A stretch of DNA of 64,000 nucleotides from Woeseiaceae bacterium (GTDB lineage Bacteria > Pseudomonadota > Gammaproteobacteria > Steroidobacterales > Woeseiaceae), in NCBI GenBank assembly GCA_021773095.1, contig JAJFKR010000028.1:154905-218904 (forward strand), read 5' to 3'. The notes under the pieces were generated by a model. The model was given only the letters and a program-made list of their open reading frames with translations, did no database searches and was not told where the DNA came from. Of the stretch, positions 36,821 through 51,394 are shown piece after piece; the first letter of the stretch is position 1, and each line of letters opens with the position of its first letter. The translations under genes and the position numbers were made by a program.

Positions 36821-37372
36821 TTGTCCGCTAGTGCTGATAACGAGCTTGTCGCGAGGGCGGTGTCCGGTCAGGATACCGCCGCTTTCGGCGAGCTGGTCCG
36901 GCGACACCAGTCGCATGTGCGAAATTTCCTGAGGAAACTGGCCGGAGATTACGCTCTGGCAGACGATTTGGCGCAAGATTGCTTCATGCATGCCTGGGAC
37001 AAGCTGCAGACGTACTCAGGACGTGGATCGTTTATCGGCTGGTTGCTCAAAGTTGCCTATACGACGTTTCTGCAATCGAAGCGAAAATCCAGGCGCTACG
37101 CCCAGATTCTTGAATCGGCAGGGCACGTTGCAGATCAGGAGTCGCGTAGCACGGTGTTACCGACTGAAGAAGTGACGGATCTGGATAAATATCTGGCCGT
37201 TCTTAGCGAAGAGGAGCGCGCCATTATGGTTATGTCTTATGCGTGCGGTTTGTCCCATCGAGAGATTGGCGATGCAACGGACATGCCAGTGGGCACAGTG
37301 AAATCTGTGATATTTCGTGGTAAACAGAAGATCAGGAACAGTTTTGACATCAAAGATCATAAACATGGCTGA
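36821..37372 (+). CDS. RNA polymerase sigma factor, sigma-70 (ECF) family (TTG start)
   Basis: ELVARAVSGQDTAAFGELVRRHQSHVRNFLRKLAGDYALADDLAQDCFMHAWD...LSHREIGDATDMPVGTVKSVIFRGKQKIR. Confidence 0.9.
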   Translation: MSASADNELVARAVSGQDTAAFGELVRRHQSHVRNFLRKLAGDYALADDLAQDCFMHAWDKLQTYSGRGSFIGWLLKVAYTTFLQSKRKSRRYAQILESAGHVADQESRSTVLPTEEVTDLDKYLAVLSEEERAIMVMSYACGLSHREIGDATDMPVGTVKSVIFRGKQKIRNSFDIKDHKHG

Positions 37373-37703
37373 GAAAATCAAAGACGCAGAGGACCGGCTG
37401 CTCGAGGCGATGTTCGACTCGAAGCCGCTGGCTGACGACGGCTTCAGTGCCAGGGTTGTCCAAAAGGTAAATCGGCAAATATGGTTTCGGAGGCTAACGC
37501 TTCCAGTTGCCGCGCTTATCGGCGGAGCTATTGCCTTTAAGCCATTGGCCGGGCTGGTAACGGCGCTGGCGAACTTTTCATCGCTGATTCCCCAGGACCT
37601 TGTTAGCGGTGCGGCCAGCTCTATTCCGCAATTTCAGACGGTGGTGCTTGGCGCAATTTTGCTGGCCGTCGGCTTGTTGAGCATGCGCTTACTGGAAGAA
37701 TAG
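37365..37703 (+). CDS. Small membrane protein, putative partner of the ECF sigma factor
   Basis: MAEKIKDAEDRLLEAMFDSKPLADDGFSARVVQKV... plus hydrophobic segments; start overlaps sigma gene stop. Confidence 0.5.
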   Translation: MAEKIKDAEDRLLEAMFDSKPLADDGFSARVVQKVNRQIWFRRLTLPVAALIGGAIAFKPLAGLVTALANFSSLIPQDLVSGAASSIPQFQTVVLGAILLAVGLLSMRLLEE

Positions 37704-37968: not shown

Positions 37969-39240
37969 ATGTCTTTCGACCTCGAAGCGATACGCTCGCA
38001 GTATCCTGCGCTGGCGCTAACTGATAACGGCACTCGCCGAATTTACTTTGACAACCCGGCCGGCACACAGGTACCTGTGTGTGTCGCTGCGGCGGTAGCG
38101 GATTGTCTGATGACGAAGAGCGCGAACCTCGGCGGCTACTTTGGATCATCTTTGGATGCTGACAGAGTCGTTCAATCCGCTCGCGACGCGATGGCTGATT
38201 TTCTGAACGCGCCGGAACCCGACGAGATCGTTTTCGGTCAGAACATGACAACCATCACCCTGCACTTATCGCGTTCAATCGGCCGCTTATTTCGAGCGGG
38301 CGATGAGATTATTCTGTCGCAAATGGATCACGACGCTAACGTCTGGCCGTGGGTACTACTGGCACGGGACCTGGAGCTTGAGATTCGCTGGTTGCCGTTC
38401 AGTAAGGATACCTTCGAGTTTGATCTTGCGGCCCTCGATAACCTTATTACGGACCGGACACGGCTGCTTTGTGTCGGTGGTGCGAGCAATCTTACCGGTA
38501 CTCTTAACGACGTAAAGACCATTTGTGCAAAGGCTCGTGCGGCCGGGGCGCTGTCTTTTATTGACGGTGTTCAGTCGGCACCGCATGTTGCGACCGACGT
38601 ACAGGATCTTGGTTGCGATTTCTTCGTCTGCTCGTCATACAAATTTTTCGGGCCGCACCAGGGAATTCTATGGGGACGCCGCGAAGTACTCGAGCAACTG
38701 GAACCCTACAAAGTCCGACCCGCTCCGGCAGAACTGCCCTGGTGTTTCGAGACCGGCACCCAAAGCCATGAGGGATTGGCGGGCATCGTCGCGGTTGTCG
38801 ACTATTTTGCGTTGATAGGGCAGTCGATGGCACAGGAACACTTAGCTGGCTGGGCACAGTTTTCGGGCCAGCGGCAGCAGGTACACGCCGCAATGGATCT
38901 GCTCCTGGATTACGAAAATACGCTGACCAATCATTTGATCGATGGATTGACCGGTATTGATGGCCTTACTGTTCAAGGCATCACTGAGAAGAGTGCGATG
39001 GATCGCCGAGTTCCAACAGTCTCATTTACGCATGAAACCATCGCATCGGCCACAATCGCCGCAGCGCTGGCGAAGCAAAACATATTCGTGTGGAGCGGGC
39101 ACAACTATGCCCTTGAAGCGGCCAAGTCGCTGGGTATTTACGAGACCGGTGGTGTAGTCCGGGTTGGGCCCGTGCACTACAACAGCATCGCTGAAATCGA
39201 CGGGCTTCTCGAAGCACTGCCCGCCTTGTTATCCGGCTAA
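37969..39240 (+). CDS. Cysteine desulfurase-like (class V aminotransferase) protein
   Basis: IYFDNPAGTQVPVCVA...MTTITLHLSRSIGRL..GDEIILSQMDHDANVWPW; PLP-Lys motif SSYKFFGPHQGILWGRR. Confidence 0.88.
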   Translation: MSFDLEAIRSQYPALALTDNGTRRIYFDNPAGTQVPVCVAAAVADCLMTKSANLGGYFGSSLDADRVVQSARDAMADFLNAPEPDEIVFGQNMTTITLHLSRSIGRLFRAGDEIILSQMDHDANVWPWVLLARDLELEIRWLPFSKDTFEFDLAALDNLITDRTRLLCVGGASNLTGTLNDVKTICAKARAAGALSFIDGVQSAPHVATDVQDLGCDFFVCSSYKFFGPHQGILWGRREVLEQLEPYKVRPAPAELPWCFETGTQSHEGLAGIVAVVDYFALIGQSMAQEHLAGWAQFSGQRQQVHAAMDLLLDYENTLTNHLIDGLTGIDGLTVQGITEKSAMDRRVPTVSFTHETIASATIAAALAKQNIFVWSGHNYALEAAKSLGIYETGGVVRVGPVHYNSIAEIDGLLEALPALLSG

Positions 39241-39249
39241 CTGTGCTCT

Positions 39250-39280
39250 GCAAACAAACAAAGCCGCATCGCTGCGGCTT
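39250..39280 (-). terminator. Terminator-like hairpin, best oriented on the minus strand
   Basis: Minus strand: AAGCCGCA-GCGA-TGCGGCTT followed by TGTTTGTTTG; immediately downstream of the sORF at 39312-39392. Confidence 0.55.
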
Positions 39281-39311
39281 TGGTGTGAGACTATGTATCT
39301 GAAAAGGAGGG

Positions 39312-39392
39312 TCAACGAAGCGGTGTCTGGTGCTCCATCTTTCGCGTCAGACCCATCGGTTTTCTAGATACCTCTGTTATCCCACGAGACAT
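39312..39392 (-). CDS. Unannotated 26-aa small ORF with extended Shine-Dalgarno
   Basis: Minus strand AAAAGGAGGTGATCC-ATG; product MSRGITEVSRKPMGLTRKMEHQTPLR; terminator-like hairpin ~30 nt after the stop. Confidence 0.5.
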   Translation of the reverse strand: MSRGITEVSRKPMGLTRKMEHQTPLR

Positions 39393-39428
39393 GGATCACC
39401 TCCTTTTATTTGTTTGCCCGATGCCAGT

Positions 39429-39524
39429 ATGTCTCGTAAGCCCCGAAATTCCAAGGAAAAAATAAGATTCAAAAAGCGCTTCAATAGACCACATTTTTCG
39501 GGTTATCATTACCAGCTCAGCTAA
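39429..39524 (+). CDS. Possible 31-aa highly basic peptide
   Basis: ATG TCT CGT AAG CCC CGA... MSRKPRNSKEKIRFKKRFNRPHFSGYHYQLS; no clear ribosome binding site. Confidence 0.2.
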   Translation: MSRKPRNSKEKIRFKKRFNRPHFSGYHYQLS

Positions 39525-39546
39525 CCATCTAATAAAGAGAACATAC

Positions 39547-39993
39547 ATGGCAATTGCAGATCTCAAGAACGTGCTCAACATCTTCGGCGGGGCCGACGTC
39601 ACTGAGGACCAACAGAACGAGCTCTTCAAAGAGGTCTTGCTGATGACCCTCGCCAGAGCGGCGGATGCGGATATCAATATTCAATCGGTCGAGATTGAGC
39701 GGATTCAGGAAATACTTAAGGCAAACACCGGCGAAGATTTCAGTTCGGCTGACATTCGAGTGGCAGCGCGTGCGGAACTGTATGCGGAAGCGACATTGCG
39801 CAAGTATCTGGGGAGCGTACGCGGGAAGTTATCAGACGCGAATCGGGCAGCAACGATCCGGGCGCTTGCGGACGTATTTCGCAGTGACTGTAACGTCAGT
39901 GTTCTCGAAGTGGACTTCTTTGATCGCGTCGCGACAGCATTACAGGCGTCACCCTCGCAGATCGCAGGTCTGATCGCCGGGGATGTTTGCTAA
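39547..39993 (+). CDS. TerB family tellurite resistance-like protein
   Basis: ELFKEVLLMTLARAADADINIQSVEIERIQEILKANTGEDFSSADIRVAARAEL. Confidence 0.8.
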   Translation: MAIADLKNVLNIFGGADVTEDQQNELFKEVLLMTLARAADADINIQSVEIERIQEILKANTGEDFSSADIRVAARAELYAEATLRKYLGSVRGKLSDANRAATIRALADVFRSDCNVSVLEVDFFDRVATALQASPSQIAGLIAGDVC

Positions 39994-49853: not shown

Positions 49854-51206
49854 TCATTGAAAGTACCGGGCGAGATAGGGATTTAGCAGTCGATTGTCCG
49901 GATCAAGTTGCCGTCTGATTTTTCGGAAAAAATCCATCCGGCCGCCGTAGGTTTGCGAAACGTACGCGTCCCGTGTCGACAATGTTTGATTGAATAAGGG
50001 CGTGCCGCCCCAGTTCTCCGCGAATTCCGAAAGGTCCAGGGCAAATCCTTCCCAGCCGCGTTTTTGTGTGGAGGTGGTTTGCAATGCGATCAAAGGCTCG
50101 TCAAACGATGGCGATAATAATGCGGAGTTGTCTCGGGCAATTCGATAGCCGACGGCTGGCAGGTCGCATCGATAGGCCGTATGTGCGAAGGTTTCGCGGC
50201 AAAATCTCGCGTAAGCCTTCACGACGACTGAAAAATCGGACGCCGGAAAACACCAGGTTGAATACAACAGATTGCCTGGCTTTCTGCGGCGGTGCCGACC
50301 ACCAGCAGCGGCGTTATTTCCGTTTCTGAGCAGTTTTGAATTCACGAGGCCGTGGGTTGTTGCTGAAAGGGTGTCCATCAACTGATACCGAACGGATGGG
50401 ATGGGCATCACCCGATTAAGCGATTTGAATACATTCGGCAGCACGGTGCTCTCACCCCAGTCCTTAATTTTCCAGGGTGTGCTGTAAGCATTCCCAGTGT
50501 TCGCGTCGTAATGGCGTAAATCAAGGTACACATGATTCCGGTAGGGCATCAAATAAAACTTGAGTCCGACATTACCGCTGGCCAGTCGATCCAGAACCGT
50601 TGCGAAGGTGTCGATATCCATGCTGCGATGGCTGGCCGTAAATGTAGTAGTTGGCCGAACTCGCATAGTCACTTCGTAGATGATCCCCAACATGCCGTAG
50701 CTCAGTCGAAATGCGCTCAGCAAATGTTGCTGGGTATTTGACACATTCATCACCTTGCCGCCGGTAGTCACTACTTTCATGCTGACGATCTGATTGGAGA
50801 GCATTGACGCTCTGCCGCCGATGCCCGGACCCATGCACGGTGCTGCGATAGCACCACCAAGCGTCCGCTCCGTCTGGTCGAAATTTCCAATCAACTCAAG
50901 GCCGTCTTCGGCCAGCGATGCAATGAGCTCACCAAGCCGAACTCCGGCTTCAACGGTCACTGTTCGATTATCGGCATCAATTCGAATTATTCGATCGAGT
51001 CCGGAAGTCTTGATCAGTGTTCCGGAAGTTGCGAGGTTGCAGTCTGTTGCCGATGACCCGGCACCCTGTGGCCGAATCGGCAGGGCAACATTTCGATTGC
51101 CGTCGAGGCAACGCATGAGGCTGGCGAGGTTGGTCGGTGCGTGGACACCGGAACGTGCAGGACGGCGAACGATCATGCCCGTGTCACGAAATCCTTGTGA
51201 CTTCAT
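49854..51206 (-). CDS. FAD-binding oxidoreductase (sugar-1,4-lactone oxidase-like, VAO family)
   Basis: FAD_binding_4 region (RPQGAGSSATDCNLATSGTLIKTSGLDRII..VEAGVRLGELIASLAEDGLELIGNFDQTERTLGGAIA) and ALO-type C-terminus. Confidence 0.82.
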   Translation of the reverse strand: MKSQGFRDTGMIVRRPARSGVHAPTNLASLMRCLDGNRNVALPIRPQGAGSSATDCNLATSGTLIKTSGLDRIIRIDADNRTVTVEAGVRLGELIASLAEDGLELIGNFDQTERTLGGAIAAPCMGPGIGGRASMLSNQIVSMKVVTTGGKVMNVSNTQQHLLSAFRLSYGMLGIIYEVTMRVRPTTTFTASHRSMDIDTFATVLDRLASGNVGLKFYLMPYRNHVYLDLRHYDANTGNAYSTPWKIKDWGESTVLPNVFKSLNRVMPIPSVRYQLMDTLSATTHGLVNSKLLRNGNNAAAGGRHRRRKPGNLLYSTWCFPASDFSVVVKAYARFCRETFAHTAYRCDLPAVGYRIARDNSALLSPSFDEPLIALQTTSTQKRGWEGFALDLSEFAENWGGTPLFNQTLSTRDAYVSQTYGGRMDFFRKIRRQLDPDNRLLNPYLARYFQ

Positions 51207-51394
51207 ATTGGTAACTCCGCTGTCTTAGGCTAGAGCCCGTAGACCGGTGGCTTTGCGACGCTGCTTTTCAGCAGCTGTGCCTTTTTCAAATGAACGTTCA
51301 TCGTTGCACAGGCGATGGGTGCTATGCAATGCAATCCCGAATTTAGTCAGTTATTGTAAAATGGCATGCTGTAACTGGTTTCAGGCGCCCTCTT

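Follow-up and report, generated by a model that had tools for sequence, protein, structure and literature searches.

The minus strand of the 64,000-nt stretch of Woeseiaceae DNA analysed here (hereafter the window) carries what is probably a free-standing small mRNA of ~168 nt, a gammaproteobacterial branch of the extended Shine-Dalgarno (SD) mRNAs of the rreB/rreR type, which would hold 30S ribosomal subunits in a pre-initiation state. Judging from sequence comparisons, it is most likely a 30S-capturing RNA for which the transit of ribosomes matters, and not the peptide. mRNAs of the rreB/rreR type are a known but little-studied kind; the new elements are the gammaproteobacterial branch itself, a covarying stem named P1, a link between the Rfam family CC2171 and the rre mRNAs, and selection on a reading frame without selection on its peptide.

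The features of the locus are collected in Table 1. An initial annotation of this DNA had proposed a hidden 26-codon gene, and all the sequences it named were found on the minus strand, including AAAAGGAGGTGATCC, the ATG at 39392, MSRGITEVSRKPMGLTRKMEHQTPLR, CCTCCTTTT (39310-39302), AGATAC (39300-39295) and GTATCT (39371-39366), together with the stop codon (39314-39312), the terminator (39282-39259) and the interleaved a-b-a'-b' order of the pairing segments. The gene is genuine, with DNA matches to the region in 68 of 150 relatives. The predicted transcript, delimited by a conserved promoter-like site and the terminator, has a minimum free energy of -62.1 kcal/mol in folding predictions (z = -4.4). 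Since a strict sigma-70 consensus scan of positions 39150-39650 flagged no site on either strand, this putative minus-strand promoter included, the promoter was deduced from conservation, TTGG...ATACT being retained in the genus homologues in the alignment of relatives. The -10 region (39429-39436, minus strand) also carries CGAGACAT, an inverted repeat of the ATGTCTCG that lies at the start codon (39385-39392, minus strand); this copy precedes the predicted start of the transcript, and its conservation was seen in near relatives only.

Table 1. Features of the small mRNA locus, in positions of the window
Feature	Positions	Strand	Content or basis
Whole unit	39419-39250	minus	promoter-like start, 16S-complementary SD, 26-codon ORF, terminator
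Promoter-like site	39426..39454	minus	TTGGAA 39454-39449, 17 nt, CATACT 39431-39426
Predicted transcript start	~39419	minus	begins GGGCAAAC...
Short 5' leader GGGCAAACAAATA	39407..39419	minus	GGGCAAACAA conserved in genus alignment
Extended SD AAAGGAGGTGATCC	39393..39406	minus	complementary to 16S 3' tail, 15 nt with A of ATG
26-codon ORF, ATG start (39392), TGA stop (39314-39312)	39312..39392	minus	translation; same length in 68 homologues
P1 proximal 5' arm GTGGGAT, codons 3-5	39379..39385	minus	partner GTCTCAC 39285-39291
P1 distal 5' arm GTATCTAGAAAA, codons 8-11	39360..39371	minus	partner TTTTCAGATAC 39295-39305
P1 distal 3' arm TTTTCAGATAC	39295..39305	minus	covariation, own-versus-swapped arm test
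P1 proximal 3' arm GTCTCAC, immediately before terminator	39285..39291	minus	covariation
CCTCCTTTT, proposed anti-SD element	39302..39310	minus	shared or competing with distal P1
Intrinsic terminator, 10-bp stem 39282-39259 and T-rich tail	39250..39282	minus	terminator search; relatives

The SD is as exceptional as the initial annotation had suggested. The SD matches the entire single-stranded 3' tail of 16S rRNA. In a genome of the same genus, this rRNA terminates in ...GGCTGGATCACCTCCTTTCT; the uninterrupted complement to this end, AAAGGAGGTGATCCA, spans 15 nt and extends into the start codon, a length of complementarity (15 nt or longer) that is characteristic of rreB/rreR-type mRNAs. The computed SD:16S duplex reaches -23.3 kcal/mol versus -11.5 kcal/mol for a usual SD. 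Within the 64-kb window, AAAGGAGGTGATCC has a single exact match, with no further site at one or two mismatches, and the 17-mer that includes the ATG is unique in the genome and remains so when one mismatch is tolerated. The exact 17-mer was present in 55 of the 398 genomes covering the order, in which a reversed control pattern had 0 matches. Furthermore, AAGGAGGTGAT is invariant across 71 aligned homologues, and the SD is nearly invariant across two classes, Alpha- and Gammaproteobacteria.

Downstream of this site, the RNA is organized by P1, a single stem built from two helices. One pairs codons 3-5 (GTGRGAT) with an ATCTCAC immediately ahead of the terminator, and the other pairs codons 8-11 (GTATC...) with ...GATAC. 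The covariation set comprised 71 sequences, drawn from the genus with a few from elsewhere, in which 88% of the informative cells were paired and 80 cells showed double changes, against 35 in shuffles; sliding the partners by 1-3 columns left 22-52% paired. On a tree-aware null, the 80 double changes compared with 19 (maximum 64) and were reached in 0 of 500 replicates; the double changes alone were significant, the paired fraction by itself being non-significant on the same null (105/500). The proximal helix is paired in 95% of its cells, with an A-U to G-C change that retains pairing, and the main helix shows double changes at seven of its eight pairs. The GTATCT/AGATAC pairing noted in the initial annotation is part of this longer, strongly covarying stem. 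In addition, arms paired better with their own partners than with swapped ones, both in the genus-level set (0/2000) and across Alpha- and Gammaproteobacteria (0/3000), a comparison in which the arm sequences bear no relation to one another (for instance GUGAGAU/AUCUCAC, CAUUGUC/GACAAUG and CAUGGUUCAGC/GCUGACCAUG). RNAalifold run on a plain MAFFT alignment missed the distal part of P1. The stem reaches codon 2 (UCU with GGA) in many sequences, a last part that is lost in the window.

These comparisons indicate that P1 connects codons 2-12 with the 3' end immediately before the terminator; it begins right after the start codon and leaves the SD and the AUG outside, the SD being exposed and not hidden. 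In the fold predicted for most sequences, the SD is mostly unpaired or engaged in a weak local hairpin. Its predicted opening cost is 4.1 kcal/mol in the full-length RNA versus 6.4 in a 3'-truncated RNA, and since it opens more cheaply in the complete molecule, a lock of the SD comparable to that of hok is not indicated. In these models, the 3' end clamps the codons just past the start instead of locking the SD. Of the initial annotation's reading of the 3' UTR, pairing with the beginning of the ORF is supported and the lock on the SD is not.

The lock had been envisaged as a helix between the SD and CCTCCTTTT, by analogy with the long-range 5'-3' pairing of hok and other type I toxin mRNAs. 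We consider it highly improbable that the element is such a toxin mRNA, silenced by pairing of its 3' UTR with the SD. An SD complement does follow the stop codon in most members of the window's subclade, and a similar CACCTCC exists in a Rhodobacteraceae-like family. The complement is, however, incomplete or missing in most sequences outside this subclade. Moreover, the helix is paired in 75.8% of cells versus 75.5% in shuffles, shows no covariation, and has its central pair broken in about half of the sequences; CCTCCTTTT overlaps the distal part of P1, and the CACCTCC of the Rhodobacteraceae-like family also falls inside a predicted pairing with the ORF. The helix was rejected for lack of covariation and for this competing pairing. 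In silico truncation fails to free the SD, and the element is usually a single copy at a stable locus, with none found in the viral contigs searched. Neither an SD locked by a conserved long-range helix nor a small, hydrophobic and conserved peptide, both expected of type I toxins, was recovered; unlike in hok, it is the early ORF that is paired, and the peptide is hydrophilic. As for an antisense antitoxin RNA, also expected of such toxins, the strict sigma-70 scan, which passed over the element's own putative promoter too, flagged no site on either strand of 39150-39650. The lack of selection on the peptide sequence argues against the toxin role on which the initial annotation had speculated.

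The reading frame and the peptide indeed evolve very differently. None of the 68 homologues contains a premature stop, when 17.8 would be expected with shuffled columns; in a tree simulation, premature stops appeared in 15 leaves and the probability of observing none was 0.0025. All 68 stop at codon 27 (63 expected), though TGA, TAA and TAG alternate there, and the other frames hold 56 (+1) and 12 (+2) stops. Known indels preserve the frame (loci L086 and L098), and the ORF follows where the ATG is displaced by one base. By contrast, substitutions in codons 13-26 are spread evenly over the three codon positions (135/134/134), and the synonymous fraction of 0.26 equals the neutral expectation, compared with 0.83 for the neighbouring desulfurase gene, a positive control resting on 8 usable pairs. 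The purifying selection on amino acids expected of a small-protein gene was not detected. In the alignments, the frame thus appears to be under selection while its amino acids evolve neutrally, a pattern that could also reflect a peptide needed as a length only.

An ordinary gene with a regulated leader and 3' UTR, encoding a 26-aa product active in the cell, would account for the strong SD, the retained start and stop and the constant length of 26 in the genus. We regard this explanation as improbable: amino acids evolve neutrally under a positive control that works, the peptide has no NCBIfam or Pfam match, and ORF length ranges from 14 to 29 codons across families, with unrelated sequences in other clades. 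For instance, 29 of the 30 ORFs of the Rhodobacteraceae-like family have 18 codons and 29/29 retain their stop (23.9 expected), and ORFs of a sphingomonad-like family range between 15 and 21 codons; both family labels are our inference. Being guarded as a frame and not as a peptide, the element offers a clean case in which translation as the function becomes directly testable.

Most genomes of the genus (Woeseiaceae) have a homologue, as do many Alphaproteobacteria and members of other gammaproteobacterial families; one copy per genome is usual. The nearest DNA matches were mostly Woeseiaceae, all of them metagenome-assembled genomes, and in another order of Gammaproteobacteria a spacer-tolerant pattern recovered the element from 27 of 36 genomes, representing 8 of 10 genera. 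A combined pattern of SD, ORF and anti-SD had no match in the genome contigs searched. Within the genus, the element adjoins a desulfurase-like gene on the opposite strand and, on its other side, commonly TerB, otherwise another gene; neighbours differ outside the genus, and the element is therefore autonomous. Among individual loci, the genus member L068 holds a decayed copy (position 2431) with its SD altered to GGAATTGATCC and its downstream arms lost. A VUT-type transporter-like gene adjoins the element in L222 and L225, and an ArfB-like ribosome-rescue gene lies close to it in L225, both names coming from reading the sequence.

The rreB/rreR mRNAs offer the closest parallel. rreB, of Bradyrhizobium and Bradyrhizobiaceae, reportedly encodes 14 aa in a 165-nt transcript, and rreR, of Rhodobacter and Roseobacter, 18 aa; they are said to bind 30S subunits strongly, to be weakly translated, hampered by their long SD, and to yield a stabler transcript once the start codon is changed to a stop. 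The likeness extends to an SD complementary to 16S rRNA over ~15-17 nt and to a very short ORF in a short free-standing mRNA of ~165 nt, the transcript of the window being predicted; the window element differs in being gammaproteobacterial, with an ATG start and 26 codons. To our knowledge, neither a covarying P1 stem nor frame selection without peptide selection has been reported for rreB/rreR. Among the 30 alphaproteobacterial loci that were read, all have the same SD, nearly unchanged, followed by an ORF of 14-27 codons with a GTG or ATG start, and ORFs of 14 and 18 codons, as in rreB and rreR, were recovered among alphaproteobacterial loci. SD pairing beyond the canonical core has also been described in Staphylococcus aureus as a general feature of ordinary mRNAs, with two extra pairs (PMC13009471); no RNA of the P1 type occurs there (PMC13009471).

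A second kinship leads to Rfam. No family matched the element at the gathering cut-off, and in a permissive scan of five loci, RF01867 (CC2171) aligned over its full length (1-159) on the right strand in all five, with 21.7-33.5 bits, below its gathering cut-off of 75 bits. The layout of RF01867 is shared, with an SD/start motif (consensus GAAAGGAGGUGAUCCAGUGUCU), a stem from codon 3 (CAUUGUC) to a GACAAUG near the 3' end and a terminator directly after it. The element is a sub-threshold relative of CC2171 and not a filed member. Across the phylum, the RF01867 model had matches in 45 of 249 genomes, with most scores under the cut-off. Conversely, a model built without alphaproteobacterial sequences (R1) matched all 30 Rfam-found alphaproteobacterial loci, many over the 5' part only, and across 60 loci its sole match per locus was the element. 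A match in L203 (E = 0.28) is probably due to chance, and two weak class matches (L173 and L175) were judged likewise.

As CC2171 is filed by Rfam as an orphan sRNA of Caulobacter, the element might instead be a base-pairing regulatory sRNA whose loop or released 3' arm targets mRNAs, the SD and ORF modulating its stability or serving a second function. The autonomous promoter and terminator, the lack of conserved neighbours outside the genus and the full-length, sub-threshold matches of this annotated sRNA family at five loci are in line with this possibility, which we nevertheless consider unlikely: the 16S-complementary SD, and not a seed, is the best conserved of the single-stranded segments, the apical loop varies and the ORF is held open.

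For the preferred reading, a 30S-capturing mRNA, the following sequence of events can be proposed. The exposed SD would grip 30S subunits very tightly, and P1, lying in the mRNA entry channel, would slow their conversion to elongating ribosomes, resulting in a pre-initiation hold. An occasional starting ribosome would open P1, traverse the loop and stop just short of the 3' arm, and this transit would expose that arm and set the turnover of the RNA. By binding 30S subunits, the RNA could then serve as a sensor or buffer, its level tracking translation and the peptide being a by-product. Counting against 30S capture, codons 2-6 are predicted to cost no more energy to open in the full-length RNA than in the truncated one, and ORF length differs between families (14-29 codons) and, among sphingomonads, inside a family. 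Ribosome profiling in Caulobacter found intergenic ncRNAs to be untranslated in general, CC2171 being unmentioned (PMC4117421); this also weighs against a role in ribosome transit, yet very weak translation could be compatible with it.

More tentatively, these elements may belong to one pan-proteobacterial class, ‘ribosome-transit’ RNAs, which would span Alpha- and Gammaproteobacteria and to which CC2171 would also belong. In such mRNAs, selection would favour 30S binding combined with translation over a set distance, the output being not a peptide but ribosome occupancy or RNA refolding. An orphan Rfam sRNA, the alphaproteobacterial rreB/rreR mRNAs and unannotated genes of Gammaproteobacteria would thereby be united in a single structured RNA whose stem shows covariation; such genes escape ORF callers and fall under the Rfam cut-off.

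Elsewhere in the window, a c-di-GMP-I riboswitch (RF01051, 78 bits; 51207-51291, minus strand) lies directly upstream of a FAD-linked oxidase-like ORF (49854-51206), and a gene for an ECF-type sigma factor, with a possible anti-sigma partner behind it (36821-37703, plus strand), is located near the desulfurase-like gene.
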